Positions 47,912 to 53,196 of a DNA stretch of 62,747 nucleotides are shown here, in pieces. Position numbers and translations under genes: made by a program. Numbering within the stretch: the stretch's first letter is position 1; every line of letters starts with the position of its first letter. This DNA is from Desulforudis sp. (GTDB taxonomy: Bacteria; Bacillota; Desulfotomaculia; Desulfotomaculales; Desulforudaceae), in NCBI GenBank assembly GCA_003604975.1, contig QZIR01000003.1, forward strand, positions 1-62,747, in the 5' to 3' direction. The notes below the pieces were generated by a model. That model was not told the origin of the DNA. It made no database searches and saw only the letters and a list, made by a program, of their open reading frames with translations.

Positions 47912-47939
47912 CAATATATGTCCAGCGGAAAGGGGAGGT
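47912..47939 (-). promoter_or_regulatory. Candidate sigma-K promoter of dpaA
   Basis: On the minus strand AC, 17 bases, then CATATATTG resembles the sigma-K consensus AC-N16/17-CATAnnnTA. Transcription would begin about 20 bases before the dpaA SD. Function is inferred from pattern and from regulation in Bacillus. Confidence 0.55.
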
Positions 47940-47946
47940 GCCTGTC

Positions 47947-48143
47947 ATGAACGGAAGTCGGAGGTCGGAAGTCGGAGGTCAGAAAACCGGATTCCGAAAT
48001 CAGAAATCCGAAACACCTAGGTCGGAAGTCAGAAGTCGGAAAAACCAGAATCTGAGATCCGAAAAACCGAAATCCAAGTCGGACAACCAGACTTCTGGGG
48101 TCAGAAAGAGCCTATGTCCGAGGTCAGAAATCCGAAGTCAACG
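47947..48143. repeat. Low-complexity purine-rich repeat (GGAAGTC-like units)
   Basis: About 200 bases made of degenerate GGAAGTCGGA / GGTCAGAAATCCGAA units repeated many times, between dapB and dpaA. The plus strand is almost pyrimidine-poor. A related, shorter run lies at 50407-50448. No gene is credible here. Confidence 0.7.
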
Positions 48144-48175
48144 ATCGGTTACGTCGTATTTGAGTGGCAACACTA

Positions 48176-49006
48176 TCAGCTTTCTTGGAACAGGAGGTTC
48201 TCCAGACCGTAAATGAGTTCGGCGCTAGCCATCACGCGGCGGACCGCGAGTATTACCCCGGGCATGAAGGATTCCCGCGAAAGTGAATCGTGCCTGATGG
48301 TCAGAGTCTGGCCTACTCCGCCGAAAATGACCTCCTGGTGAGCGACAAGTCCGGGCAGCCGCACGCTGTGGACCCGGATCCCCCGGGCAAACTCACCCCC
48401 GCGGGCACCCTCAAGCTTGATCGTTTCTTCGATCATCGATGGCCTGTTGTCACCCCGTGCGGCCGCAATCACTTCAGCCGTTTTCAATGCTGTACCGGAG
48501 GGCGCGTCCAACTTCTGGTCATGGTGAAGCTCAATGATTTCCACTGATGGGAAGTAATTCGTGGCCATTTCCGCAAACTTCATCATCAGTACAGCCCCAA
48601 TCGCAAAGTTTGGGGCAATCAGTCCGCCGATTCCGGCTTTCCGGGCCAGTTCCTGAAGTTCCATCCGCTCCTCGGCGGCCATCCCGGTGGTCCCAATCAC
48701 CGGGTGCACACCCTGTTCAATGGCCGTCCGGGCGTTGTCAAAAACGGCGCGGGGAGACGTAAAGTCGACCACAACCTGGGCCCCCGTCTCGCGCAATACC
48801 TGCCTGAGATCATTTCCGATCGCCACCCCGAGAGGGGCGATTCCGGCAACCTCTCCAGCATCTTTGCCAAACTGATGGACGTCAACGGCCCCGACCAGTT
48901 CTATCCCCTTTTCCTTACTTACCGCCCGTACGACTTCTTGTCCCATTCGGCCGGCTGCGCCGCTTACCGCAACTCTAATAATCTCGTTCACCCTCTTTTG
49001 AACCAT
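48176..49006 (-). CDS. dapB: 4-hydroxy-tetrahydrodipicolinate reductase
   Basis: 276 residues. NAD(P) loop VAVSGAAGRMGQEVV, substrate and catalytic motif EIIELHHDQKLDAPSGTALKTAE and GTTGM are clear. It reduces the DapA product toward lysine and diaminopimelate. The ATG has a poor ribosome site; a start at about 48976-48982 behind AAGAGGGTG would shorten it by 8-10 residues. It sits upstream of dpaA, which competes for the same dihydrodipicolinate. Confidence 0.95.
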   Translation of the reverse strand: MVQKRVNEIIRVAVSGAAGRMGQEVVRAVSKEKGIELVGAVDVHQFGKDAGEVAGIAPLGVAIGNDLRQVLRETGAQVVVDFTSPRAVFDNARTAIEQGVHPVIGTTGMAAEERMELQELARKAGIGGLIAPNFAIGAVLMMKFAEMATNYFPSVEIIELHHDQKLDAPSGTALKTAEVIAAARGDNRPSMIEETIKLEGARGGEFARGIRVHSVRLPGLVAHQEVIFGGVGQTLTIRHDSLSRESFMPGVILAVRRVMASAELIYGLENLLFQES

Positions 49007-49114
49007 TTTGTTATAGTTTTACAATTCTGAATTTGGTTATGAGGGTATTTATATTACATCTTCCACAACTTGTCAACTATTTCCCGCCAAGCCACTCAAT
49101 TCCCCGGTTAACCG

Positions 49115-49294
49115 CTACTGGGAGCGATCCGGGTTAGTGTCGGTTACCATGTGGGCACGAGACGGGCGAATGTAGGTAATGTTGTACCGGCCGGACGGGC
49201 ATCCGCTGTTCTCCTCGATGATGTTGTAGACCGAAAACCCGGTATTATGAGCAAAACGCAGCTTTCTGATTTTGAAATCCGGCTCCCTGTTCAT
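49115..49294 (-). CDS. Small hypothetical protein coupled to the Clp-fold protease
   Basis: 59 residues from ATG 49294, which overlaps the stop of the upstream protease gene as ATGA and has AAAGGATG 7 bases before. It starts basic (MNREPDFKIRKLRFAHNTG), then FSVYNIIEENSGCPSGRYNI, one Cys, no membrane segment. The family is unknown. The translational coupling is the main evidence that it is real. Confidence 0.65.
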   Translation of the reverse strand: MNREPDFKIRKLRFAHNTGFSVYNIIEENSGCPSGRYNITYIRPSRAHMVTDTNPDRSQ

Positions 49295-50295
49295 TGGATA
49301 CATCCTTTCACATTCTGCGAGCGCCATCCCTGGCTCAGGATATTGACGTTGAACTGGCCCTTTTCTCCAAACTCGTTTCGCTCGACCTCACCATGAAAAA
49401 CAAAAACGTGCTGCCCGTTCACTGATTCGATGTACCCGCCCGGAACCTCAAACGTAGGACACAACTGGGTGACCACTTCATCGGGATTGAACGGTGTGCC
49501 GAGTTTCAGGCTTTGATCGTAATCCTCGTAGAGGGTCCAGAGGTCTTCTTCAAGTTGTTCATCCGGATACACGATTGGCATACCGATTTCCTGCGCCGCC
49601 TCCTGCCTCGGGATCATGTGGTTGTGGGCATACAGTTTCTCCGTGAGGCTGTCCACGATGGCCTGGATTTTGTCCGGCGAAAAGGTCTTCCGGTGGGTCA
49701 GCAACAACCGCCTGGCCAGGGACCGGACCAGAAGATGATTCCGGTGGACGTTGCCCAGGGCCAGCGGGTGGATCCGTGAAGCCAGCAGCATAAAGGCCCG
49801 GGCCAGTTCCGATTCCGACCGTAATCCGGCTTCATCCCGCACCAGGGTCAGGTAGGAGTAGACGTCCTCAACATTCACCGGAACCCGGGCGCCTGGATTA
49901 ATGGGATCTTGCGGGTTAAAGGCGTTCACGACACTGGGATCGATGGGCCCCAGTTCACCCATCCGTCCCATTACGATTTCATCCGCCCCCAGGCAGACCA
50001 GGGTGCCGGCACTATAAGCCCGGTAAGGTACGAGTACCGAAAAGTGGGTGGTGAACTCCCGGATCAGATGGACTAACCGCCAAGGCGTAAGCACATCTCC
50101 GCCCCTGGTATACAGGAAGAGATCAACGCGCTCATAGGATGACCGGCGACGCAGGTGCCGGTATATCACCGGCAGCGCATCCGGCGCGATCCTGGTACTG
50201 ACATTCTCCCTGTCACCCGTAATATAGGTAATCACTGTAGAATTACGGCGTGTGGCAATACGGTTCAACAAGTTGAGTCTACGGGAAAAGCCCAT
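49291..50295 (-). CDS. SDH-family Clp-fold serine proteinase
   Basis: 334 residues from ATG 50295 behind GAGAGGAGG; the frame stays open a further 61 codons into an upstream repeat that starts MINFAWLCQ. The fold is ClpP/SppA-like: VDLFLYTRGGDVLTPWRLVHLIREF, then the nucleophile Ser in YRAYSAGTLVCLGADEIVMG, and ELGPIDPSVVN. The family (Pfam serine dehydrogenase proteinase) has few characterised members; likely a cytosolic or membrane-associated peptidase. A later DQSLKLGTPFNPDEVVTQLCPTFEVPGGYIES region is extra. Confidence 0.85.
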   Translation of the reverse strand: MGFSRRLNLLNRIATRRNSTVITYITGDRENVSTRIAPDALPVIYRHLRRRSSYERVDLFLYTRGGDVLTPWRLVHLIREFTTHFSVLVPYRAYSAGTLVCLGADEIVMGRMGELGPIDPSVVNAFNPQDPINPGARVPVNVEDVYSYLTLVRDEAGLRSESELARAFMLLASRIHPLALGNVHRNHLLVRSLARRLLLTHRKTFSPDKIQAIVDSLTEKLYAHNHMIPRQEAAQEIGMPIVYPDEQLEEDLWTLYEDYDQSLKLGTPFNPDEVVTQLCPTFEVPGGYIESVNGQHVFVFHGEVERNEFGEKGQFNVNILSQGWRSQNVKGCIQ

Positions 50296-50449
50296 CAGTA
50301 CCTCCTCTCTCGCGAAGCTGATTACATTCCAGTAGTGATCAGGGGCCTGCTTAACGCTTGTAATAGTATGGCCGCACGGCTCGTTTTCAACCGTGCGTTT
50401 GGGAGGTGAGATGTGAGAAGTTGGAAGTGAGACTTCCCACTTCCCATTC

Positions 50450-50478
50450 GCCTGACAAAGCCATGCGAAGTTTATCAC
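50450..50478 (-). repeat. MINFAWLCQ repeat, copy 3 (short)
   Basis: 29 bases matching, apart from the edge, the start-codon end of the copies at 51208-51265 and 51367-51424. On the minus strand AGAGGAG precedes GTG and the peptide MINFAWLCQA. The frame runs on to the protease gene. Confidence 0.85.
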
Positions 50479-50487
50479 TGGTCTCCT

Positions 50488-50754
50488 CTAAAGGAAGCGT
50501 CGGAGCCTTGGCTGAGTCTGATCCAACTCCACCACGATCACCTCTGTGCCTACCTTACGTACGGCATCCCAGGGAACAACCAGTTCCTGTTGCCCTGTCC
50601 ACACATTCAGTACATTAGGGCGCCTCGGCAACAAGAGCGAGTAGATCTCCCCGGTCGAAGGATCGATGGAGATGTCGGAGTGACCCACCACCCCAAGGCG
50701 GGAGCCGTCAGCAATGTTGACAATCTCCTTACCGGCCATCTGCGACAGACGCAT
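50488..50754 (-). CDS. YlmC/YmxH-family sporulation protein (PRC-barrel)
   Basis: 88 residues: MRLSQMAGKEIVNIADGSRLG then GHSDISIDPSTGEIYSLLLP and ELVVPWDAVRKVGTEVIVVEL, a PRC-barrel beta fold. YlmC/YmxH proteins are sporulation-associated and of unknown activity. Bacillus ymxH lies between the M16 peptidase gene and spoVFA, the same neighbourhood. ATG after GGTGGTG. Confidence 0.88.
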   Translation of the reverse strand: MRLSQMAGKEIVNIADGSRLGVVGHSDISIDPSTGEIYSLLLPRRPNVLNVWTGQQELVVPWDAVRKVGTEVIVVELDQTQPRLRRFL

Positions 50755-50778
50755 GTTTTACACCACCCCAGCCTCGAT

Positions 50779-51132
50779 CTAGAATCTGGCGCGTTTTCTG
50801 ATTCCCTGGGTCAGGCCAAGCAACACGGGCTGGATCGCCGCCAGCAGGATGGCCGCGGAGGCCAGAGGCTCAAGCTCCATAGTCCCCACGGTGATCCGGG
50901 CCGGCGGCTCAATGCCGACAAAAGTAAGCATTAGCACTACTGACAGATAGATACCACCCGCGTTGCCGATTAAGGTGCCCAGGGCTTCTGAAAACGGGGT
51001 CTTCTGGGGCTCAAGTTCCCAGAGGTTTCCGCTCCGGTGCCAGGTCATAAAAGAACCCCGTTTTTCCCGGTCGTACCACCGTACCAGGAAAAACAGCCCG
51101 AGGATCGCAAAAAAAACAATCGCCGTAACCAT
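50779..51132 (-). CDS. Hypothetical membrane protein
   Basis: 117 residues from ATG 51132, close behind GGGGGTGGG. Three hydrophobic stretches (TAIVFFAILGLFFLVRWYD; GTLIGNAGGIYLSVVLMLTFVG; ASAAILLAAIQPVLLGLTQGI) with a short basic-aromatic loop between the first two (REKRGSFMTWHRSGNLWELEP). No family recognised. An open frame joins it upstream to repeat copy 1, which would add 44 residues beginning MINFAWLCQ. It lies between dut and ylmC. Confidence 0.65.
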   Translation of the reverse strand: MVTAIVFFAILGLFFLVRWYDREKRGSFMTWHRSGNLWELEPQKTPFSEALGTLIGNAGGIYLSVVLMLTFVGIEPPARITVGTMELEPLASAAILLAAIQPVLLGLTQGIRKRARF

Positions 51133-51207
51133 TATCCCACCCCCTACCATATCTATGGGACAAGACAGGCGATTATGACGACGTTGTGATAGTGTTCTCC
51201 AAAGGTG

Positions 51208-51265
51208 TGAAACGTACGTGAGCACTGGGCGACGAGCCTGACAAAGCCATGCGAAGTTTATCACC
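51208..51265 (-). repeat. MINFAWLCQ repeat, copy 1
   Basis: 58 bases identical to 51367-51424. It contains the palindrome ACGTACGT. On the minus strand AAGAGGA lies before a GTG (51264) that opens MINFAWLCQARRPVLTYVS and continues in frame into the membrane protein gene. Confidence 0.92.
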
Positions 51266-51294
51266 AGTCGTCCTCTTCAACTCACACCAGAAGT

Positions 51295-51423
51295 CTACCA
51301 GCATGGAGAACGGTCAGAAACGAGCAGGGCGCGGAAGGTGAAGTCGCCCCAGCAGCGGAGCGTACTTGAAACGTACGTGAGCACTGGGCGACGAGCCTGA
51401 CAAAGCCATGCGAAGTTTATCAC
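51295..51423 (-). CDS. Possible 42-residue peptide from repeat copy 2
   Basis: GTG with GAGAGGAG 5-6 bases upstream, a few bases after the dut stop codon. It reads MINFAWLCQARRPVLTYVSS and ends CW-stop. Nearly half of it is the repeat itself. It might be translated, given the ribosome site, but there is no evidence of function. Confidence 0.35.
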   Translation of the reverse strand: MINFAWLCQARRPVLTYVSSTLRCWGDFTFRALLVSDRSPCW

Positions 51424-51424
51424 C
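51367..51424 (-). repeat. MINFAWLCQ repeat, copy 2
   Basis: 58 bases identical to 51208-51265, 102 bases away in the same orientation, immediately downstream of dut. Identity stops sharply at both ends. Confidence 0.92.
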
Positions 51425-51434
51425 GTTCTCCTCT

Positions 51435-51902
51435 CTAGCGGCCTGTGGAGCCAAATCCTCTATCCCCCCGCTCCGTGGCGTCCAATTCAGTAACAAACTC
51501 CAGACGGGCGATGGTGATCGGGACAATCACCAGCTGGGCGATCCGGTCCCCGGGGTTGATGGTGTAGGGTTCCTTACTCAGGTTAATAACCGGACAGAGA
51601 ATCTCGCCGGTGTAGTCGGAATCAACTACGCCCACGGCGTTCGCTAGGGTGATTCCATGCCTGGCGGCATTTCCGCTCCTGGGGAAGACCATCGCCGCAT
51701 AATTCTGGTCAGGTAGTTGAATAGCGATCCCGGTACCGATCTTCACGATTTCGCCCGGCGCCAGCGTTACCGGCTTGTCCAGGCACGCTGCAAGGTCCAT
51801 GCCAGCCGAACCCGATGTTGCGTAACGAGGTTCGGTGACCGACGTCCCTGGATCACGCACCATCCGGCATTTGATGGTAACCTGTTTTTCCCCTGGGTTC
51901 AT
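51435..51902 (-). CDS. dut: dUTP diphosphatase
   Basis: 155 residues of the trimeric dUTPase family: the five motifs are SAGMDLAACL, FPRSGNAARHGITLAN, GVVDSDYTGEILCPVIN, INPGDRIAQLVIVP and RGDRGFGSTGR. It hydrolyses dUTP to dUMP, keeping uracil out of DNA and feeding thymidylate. Motif 2 has SGNAARHG where SGLAxKHG is usual. ATG start; it is the gene after the M16 peptidase. Confidence 0.95.
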   Translation of the reverse strand: MNPGEKQVTIKCRMVRDPGTSVTEPRYATSGSAGMDLAACLDKPVTLAPGEIVKIGTGIAIQLPDQNYAAMVFPRSGNAARHGITLANAVGVVDSDYTGEILCPVINLSKEPYTINPGDRIAQLVIVPITIARLEFVTELDATERGDRGFGSTGR

Positions 51903-51924
51903 CCCGGAGGCCCACCCTTCAACG

Positions 51925-53196
51925 TTATTGCGATGACTTTAACCGGGTCAGGGCCGTTTCCCAGCCATCATAATCACACCACTGGCCGATCGTGGCCAGC
52001 GAGAAGCGATCCGCGTTGAACATCTCGCCGGCGACTCTCTTGATCTGGTCGCCAGTAACGGCCTGCAGTCGCTCCACGACCTCATCCGGAGTTGTAACCC
52101 GCCCCAGGTAGAGCTCCGATTTGCCCAGCCGGCTCATCCTGGTGTTCACGTTCTCCAGGCTTAGTAGAAAACTCCCCTTCAACTGGTCCTTGGTCCGCTT
52201 AAGTTCGGTCTCACCTACACCATTCACCTTGAGCTCGTTCAGTTCATCCATCACGATCTGCAGTACCTGATTGGCGTTGGCGCTGCTCAAACCGGCGTAC
52301 ACGCAGAAGAGGCCCGTATCGTGGTAGGAACTGTGATAGGAGAAAACGGTGTAGACCAGGCCCCGTTCTTCGCGGATCTTCTGAAACAGCCGCGAGCTCA
52401 AGCCCCCGCCCAGGACCGTATTGATCACCTGCATCACGTACGCGTCGTCGTCGTCCAGGCGCAACCCCTCGGTACCCACACATAGGTGGACCTGCTCGGT
52501 GTCCTTTTGACGGCAGACGGCTTCGGTAACGGGCCGCGGGGCCGTGTAAAGGCGGGGGCCGTTGGCCGCCGGAAGGTGTTCAAAAGCCGCCCGGAGCTTT
52601 TCGACCACCTGCTCGTGTTTGATGTTGCCGGCACAGGATATCACCATATCACCGCAACGGTAGTGCTGTTCGTAAAAGTCCAGTAGCGTGGACCGGTCCA
52701 CGTTCCTAACGATCTCTTCATTACCGATGATGGGTCGCCCGAGTGAGTGCGTTTGCCACATAGAGCCCGTGAGCACATCATGCACCATTTCATCCGGTGC
52801 ATCCTCGTACATCTTGATTTCCTCAACAATTACGTTCTTCTCGCGCTCAATGTCCTCCGGAGCAAACAGGGATCCAAAGAGCATGTCGGAGACGACCTCG
52901 ATCGCCAGATCGATGTGTTCATCAAGGACTTTAGTGTGGTAACAGGTGTATTCCTTCGTGGTAAAGGCGTTAATCTGACCGCCGACAGCGTCCAGGGATT
53001 CGGCGATCTCCTTTGCCGTCCGTTTCTTGGTCCCTTTAAACATCATGTGTTCAATGAAGTGCGATATCCCGTTGTTATGATCGCTCTCATCGCGCGAACC
53101 CACGTTGACCCATACTCCAAGAGATACTGACCGCACATGCGGAATTTCTTCCGTCAAGACCCTGACCCCGTTGTCTAATACAACCTTTCGAACCAT
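51925..53196 (-). CDS. M16-family zinc metallopeptidase
   Basis: 423 residues. The inverted zinc site HFIEHMMFKGT (HxxEH) with the distal Glu in NVIVEEIKMYEDAPDEMVHD, and the second half lacking a site (GGGLSSRLFQKIREERGLVYTVFSYHSSYHDTGLF), match bacterial processing-peptidase-like proteins such as Bacillus MlpA/YmxG. There is no signal peptide. Same position downstream of pnp-ylxY as in Bacillus. Confidence 0.94.
   Translation of the reverse strand: MVRKVVLDNGVRVLTEEIPHVRSVSLGVWVNVGSRDESDHNNGISHFIEHMMFKGTKKRTAKEIAESLDAVGGQINAFTTKEYTCYHTKVLDEHIDLAIEVVSDMLFGSLFAPEDIEREKNVIVEEIKMYEDAPDEMVHDVLTGSMWQTHSLGRPIIGNEEIVRNVDRSTLLDFYEQHYRCGDMVISCAGNIKHEQVVEKLRAAFEHLPAANGPRLYTAPRPVTEAVCRQKDTEQVHLCVGTEGLRLDDDDAYVMQVINTVLGGGLSSRLFQKIREERGLVYTVFSYHSSYHDTGLFCVYAGLSSANANQVLQIVMDELNELKVNGVGETELKRTKDQLKGSFLLSLENVNTRMSRLGKSELYLGRVTTPDEVVERLQAVTGDQIKRVAGEMFNADRFSLATIGQWCDYDGWETALTRLKSSQ

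Follow-up and report, generated by a model that had tools for sequence, protein, structure and literature searches.

Results

Three repeats in the spacers of a dut operon

In the window, by which we mean the whole stretch of 62,747 nt (positions 1-62747) that was analysed, dut, a membrane-protein gene, ylmC and a protease gene form an operon on the minus strand (Table 1). Its spacers hold three repeats, all on the strand of the genes, as a sequence-only reading of this DNA had stated. The other observations of that reading on the letters themselves proved accurate as well. The segments at 51208-51265 and 51367-51424 are identical over 58/58 nt and have their first 29 nt in common with 50450-50478; all three contain GTG ATA AAC TTC GCA TGG CTT TGT CAG, which encodes MINFAWLCQ; the frames run for 44 codons to the membrane-protein ATG at 51132, for 61 codons to the protease ATG at 50295, or end as a closed 42-aa ORF; and the palindrome ACGTACGT is found in both longer copies. 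A 27-nt core of the repeat occurs three times in the window and never in 100 shuffles, which exceeds chance.

Two further descriptions stood in part. An AGGAG-like site had been placed before each GTG; GGAG is indeed present in two copies, yet only 4 nt from the GTG, and in the copy at 51208-51265 the site is degenerate (GAGGACGACTG-GTG). The 58-nt repeat is likewise real as a sequence, but as a unit it is merely one arm, with the loop, of a 127-nt hairpin that is whole only at 51305-51431. This full copy starts 3 nt past the dut stop codon, and the stretch around it (51285-51445) has a predicted folding energy of -62.8 kcal/mol (z -2.6 relative to shuffles). The half copy gives a weak match to the covariance model (51156-51272, 32.5 bits), and the stub, which starts 1 nt past the ylmC stop codon, matches at 50376-50486 with 20.5 bits.

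Table 1. Operon genes, repeat copies and the intact related transposon, with the basis of each assignment
Feature	Position	Strand	Basis or remark
dut (dUTPase), complete	51435..51902	-	PF00692, E 1.5e-32; stop TAG inside CTAG at 51435-51438
Full hairpin copy, 127 nt	51305..51431	-	Covariance model, 120.9 bits, E 1.5e-28; sole complete copy in the window
Left terminal inverted repeat GGAGAACGGTGATAAAC	51415..51431	-	"Ribosome site" and GTG of the sequence-only reading; pairs with GTTTCTGACCGTTCTCC, covaries between copies
58-nt repeat, left arm and loop of the full hairpin	51367..51424	-	Sequence comparison
Right hairpin arm (inner), GTTTCTGACCGTTCTCC	51305..51321	-	Pairs with GGAGAACGGTGATAAAC at 51415-51431
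Half copy, left arm and loop without right arm, just past the full copy	51208..51265	-	58/58 identical to the full copy
Membrane-protein gene, native ATG 51132	50779..51132	-	ATG and GGGGGTGGG leader kept in repeat-less congener G049
ylmC/PRC-barrel gene, complete	50488..50754	-	PF05239; same end in G049
Stub, left terminus GGAGACCAGTGATAAAC and 20 nt, remainder replaced by GAAGTGGGAAGT-type repeat	50450..50486	-	Model match
SDH/ClpP-like protease gene, native ATG 50295, GGAGG ribosome site	49291..50295	-	PF01972 from the ATG form
Intact IS1182-family transposon, CTAG|AAGAGTGTTGCAAAA ends	L226 540-2391 (G006 contig C31)		

The GAAGTGGGAAGT-type repeats form a further family, which lies nested in the hairpin at a favoured position. 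They break it at one and the same point (GTCAGGCGAATG) both in the ylmC copy and in a copy of the same genome that is not linked to it (repeats at 50400-50450 and 47938-48216 of the window and at about 1500 of L038), and repeats like them also break hairpin copies in relatives (L040, L043, L044, L105).

A congener (G049) has kept the operon and lacks the repeats. Similarity between the two does not extend past the stop codons of dut and ylmC, the dut stop lies in the same place in both, and the start of the protease gene (GGAGGTAC followed by ATGGGCTTT) is kept. Pairwise alignments at three loci also showed the element to be absent in relatives, which are too diverged to reveal target duplications.

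A covarying hairpin conserved across a phylum

Pairing in the hairpin is maintained by compensatory change. In an alignment of 85 copies taken from many genomes, pairing holds in 92.8% of the cells at the 26 predicted pairs, and 250 cells carry double changes, compared with 51.7 +/- 5.5 in shuffles, although this alignment was fitted to the covariance model and the double-change count therefore leans towards the model. The signal was lost when the partner was slid. In a set of 35 copies, 15/26 predicted pairs show double changes. The terminal bases that had been taken for a ribosome site vary between copies in step with the opposite arm (GGAGAACGGT/ACCGTTCTCC, GGAGACCGTT/AACGGCCTCC and GGAGAGCGCT/AGCGCTCTCC). 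Several copies, in G029 and in Peptococcaceae BRH_c4b, have a small palindrome, GGGGACATTCCTCCGAAGGAGGTGTGTCCCC, inserted in the loop region (L045 1384-1534, minus strand; L083 5123-5285; L097 269-472).

About 20 copies or fragments are dispersed over the 3.14-Mb genome of the window. A pattern search found the element in 20 of the 113 genomes of the class, with Ammonifex, Desulforudis and Peptococcaceae assemblies among the named carriers, and the covariance model extended the family to 40/398 genomes of the phylum (35/267 genera), nearly always at a length of ~125 nt. One copy searched in a plasmid collection and in a phage collection gave no match in either, and the sequence words of the element were not found in the relevant papers of the literature searched.

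Complete copies, their ends and the IS1182 family

No right terminal repeat can be recognised in any of the three window copies; only the left end is kept, and a target duplication is not visible at these truncated copies. Therefore, the structure of the full element rests on copies elsewhere. Copies compared within genomes showed that the longer ones measure ~200-290 bp and have a common sequence from a CTAG/GGAG junction to ~80 nt past the hairpin, where the end of the tail, GTTTTGCAACACTCTC, repeats the left end, GAGACCGTTGCAAAAC, in inverted orientation. The flanking 4-mers are identical in 13/28 copies compared with 6.2 in shuffles (P 0.0001), which constitutes a 4-bp target duplication. 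Most of the identical pairs are CTAG, and CTGG, CTAT, ATAG and CTTG pairs occur too. A reading with TA duplication (Tc1/IS630-like) was displaced by this 4-bp duplication. On contig C8 of the window's genome, a full-length copy has CTAG on both sides, the first of which contains the TAG that terminates the gene upstream.

Near-identical ends (CTAG|AAGAGTGTTGCAAAA and TTTTGCAACACTCTC|CTAG) enclose a 1.85-kb unit in the related genome G006. It encodes an intact 530-aa transposase, which scores 328.7 bits against the NCBIfam IS1182 equivalog (cut-off 270). This transposon is probably of the autonomous partner type. Related ends, of CTAGGAG or CCTAGGA type, are present on both sides of IS1182 transposons from nine other genomes of the class. 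The left end of the GATAAAC subclass in the window's genome (GGAGAnCGnTGATAAAC) is only partly like IS1182 ends. Neither the window's genome (a draft of 75 contigs) nor some copy-rich relatives (G004, G005) yielded an IS1182 transposase with such ends, and the partner there is lost or unseen; thus, the copies in the window's genome may be immobile relics. An active MITE usually has its autonomous partner in the same genome, whereas a relic need not have one.

Placement at stop codons

Of 77 copies, 25 have the 5' edge of the hairpin at -3 to +7 relative to the stop of an ORF that spans at least 90 codons, and 12 of these have it at exactly -1, whereas the opposite edge takes such a position in one copy. 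At -1, the first base of the element serves as the last base of the stop codon (TA followed by G or A, or TG followed by A). CTAG is strongly under-represented in the window, with 56 sites against the 234 expected from base composition; of these, 37 fall within ORFs, 5 coincide with stops and the other 14 lie elsewhere, so that stops make up about a quarter of the tolerable sites. CTAG targeting together with loss of gene-internal insertions would therefore explain much of the pattern. Among 33 full-length copies, the left end abuts a stop in 8 and the right end in 3, a bias that target choice alone does not predict. In a hypD-like gene, the insertion appears from the sequences to have replaced the last codons: the G043 protein ends ...ERRSS* at the element, and that of G046, which lacks the element, continues ...ERRTAAG* (L132 vs L102).

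Discussion

Shared terminal repeats, 4-bp duplications and IS1182 ends in the same class make an IS1182-type element the most likely source, and we conclude, with a probability of roughly 83%, that the three repeats derive from a non-autonomous miniature inverted-repeat transposable element (MITE) of IS1182 type, of which they are degraded copies. The family has several of the features expected of such an element: there is no transposase gene, the size is small, the copies are several and dispersed, the terminal inverted repeats of full-length copies match those of IS1182, and the target-site duplication is short. The sequence-only reading had offered a mobile miniature repeat among its alternatives, and the absence of the element from the same loci of the congener agrees with that choice as well.

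In the model that we favour, the complete element spans ~200 bp. It opens with a left terminal repeat, where the 125-nt imperfect hairpin has its outer end; a ~80-nt tail and a right terminal repeat follow. We infer from sequence comparison that an IS1182-family transposase moves it in trans; the enzyme would recognise the ends, insert at 4-bp sites, mostly CTAG, and duplicate them. Insertions into a CTAG inside a gene would presumably be lost as lethal or harmful, and the survivors would be those that are intergenic or lie in a stop-bearing CTAG. TAG stop codons would survive insertion because the CTAG target carries them, the duplication preserving the stop. In the operon of the window, one copy would have landed right behind dut and a partial copy next to it, and a stub would have been left behind ylmC. 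GGAGA, GTG and the peptide would then be by-products of the terminal-repeat sequence, with no role for the GTG.

The sequence-only reading had also proposed that the repeat captures translation, supplying a ribosome site and a GTG from which downstream genes would gain alternative N-terminal extensions, and three copies in one operon, a GGAG-like sequence before the GTG and two frames that enter the next gene do invite this view. Nevertheless, we consider it highly improbable. Across 66 copies, the position of the GTG is occupied by TTG in 26, CTG in 17 and GTG in 15, and never by ATG, and hairpin lengths modulo 3 are distributed 27/23/16, so the frame is ignored. Nor do copies with a usable start leave the hairpin in an open frame more often: the frame stays open for over 60 nt beyond the hairpin in 9/41 copies with GTG or TTG compared with 9/25 without. 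The extensions have no Pfam family match, both downstream genes keep their native ATG and ribosome site in the repeat-less congener, and the GGAG bases change together with their partners on the opposite arm, as the end of a hairpin should. With no conserved start and no frame preservation, a coding or N-terminal-extension reading was rejected. Unlikely, though less so, is a structured 3'-UTR RNA whose hairpin is kept to stabilise or process mRNA or to insulate the operon members. The strong compensatory changes, the 5' edge often right behind stop codons in one orientation, and the folding of the full copy, better than that of shuffles, speak for it. However, G-U pairs should far exceed A-C mismatches if an RNA were selected, and the counts of 66 and 51 are nearly equal, so that the transcribed strand is not favoured and no selection on an RNA strand is seen. 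Moreover, the hairpin is absent at the same loci in the congener, an Rfam covariance search of positions 49000-53000 of the window returned no match up to E 1, and no terminator-like T run follows the hairpin; an intrinsic terminator was rejected for want of this T tract. The regulatory RNA that had been suggested is improbable, though less so than translation capture. The hairpin may affect mRNA wherever it is transcribed, but such an effect is not what seems to keep it.

The core-site sequences of integron attC sites, which we considered for their position behind stops, presumably do not fit. The least probable of the alternatives is a palindrome of the REP/REPIN type that a RAYT (Y1) transposase, and not IS1182, would mobilise. 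It would account for a dispersed palindrome often found beside stops, as in GTAG REPs, whose tag supplies TAG (PMC3733652), and Y1 proteins are present in most genomes of the class (96/113). However, they occur irrespective of the presence of copies, and G073, at 95% completeness, has several copies and no Y1 match. The size of 125-200 nt instead of 20-40, the CTAG that is a two-sided target duplication and not a one-sided GTAG tag, and the match of the ends to IS1182 also argue against this origin.

Taken together, on present evidence the sequence-only reading was correct in observation, right about mobility and wrong about translation. An apparent translation device is replaced by mobile DNA whose CTAG target coincides with TAG stops, a targeting that lets the element settle in dense operons without breaking genes. 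Its open frames could mislead gene callers into annotating small proteins or spurious N-terminal extensions. The result is a family of palindromic elements that is spread over many Bacillota and was found neither in Rfam nor in the literature searched, with a likely transposase named. What is unusual for a MITE is that the hairpin core has been conserved throughout a phylum. We tentatively raise a further possibility, less likely than not, in which IS1182-type transposases recognise the DNA structure of the 125-nt hairpin itself, its conserved mismatches and loop included, so that the core, beyond the ends, is under selection. If so, the family would represent a phylum-wide class of structure-dependent miniature transposons, present in 35 of 267 sampled genera, whose repeated settling on stop codons has furnished operon genes with hairpins at their 3' ends.

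Several known systems resemble the element in part. Like the REPs and REPINs with GTAG or CGTC tags (PMC3733652), its copies are dispersed palindromes that lie mainly behind genes and sometimes supply TAG stops; unlike REPs, which measure 20-40 bp and have a one-sided tag, it spans 125-200 bp, with a two-sided CTAG duplication and DDE-type ends. It shares with bcr1, NEMIS, ERIC and RUP the character of a hairpin-forming MITE of 70-300 bp beside genes (class per PMC3733652), although these have different hosts and the likeness is one of description, made without alignment of ends or sequence. Members of the IS1182 family, to which IS1272 belongs, are reported to use palindromic targets (PMC5678879), and some are known to target stem-loops. 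The IS1182 ends of the class (CTAG|GAG..TGTTGCAAAA) match those of the repeat, which, unlike these transposons, encodes no transposase; unlike IS1272, which replaces stem-loops without a target duplication (PMC5678879), its copies show a 4-bp duplication. A further description is that of two IS1182-associated MITEs of 160 and 169 bp in the archaeon Methanosarcina acetivorans (e.g. ISMac2-derived), which have ~25-bp inverted repeats, with 4-bp direct repeats listed for one of the two (PMC3852290). Likened by description, these share with our element its non-coding nature, similar size, IS1182-assigned ends and 4-bp repeats; what sets the present family apart from them is its 125-nt imperfect hairpin core, common to many Bacillota families.
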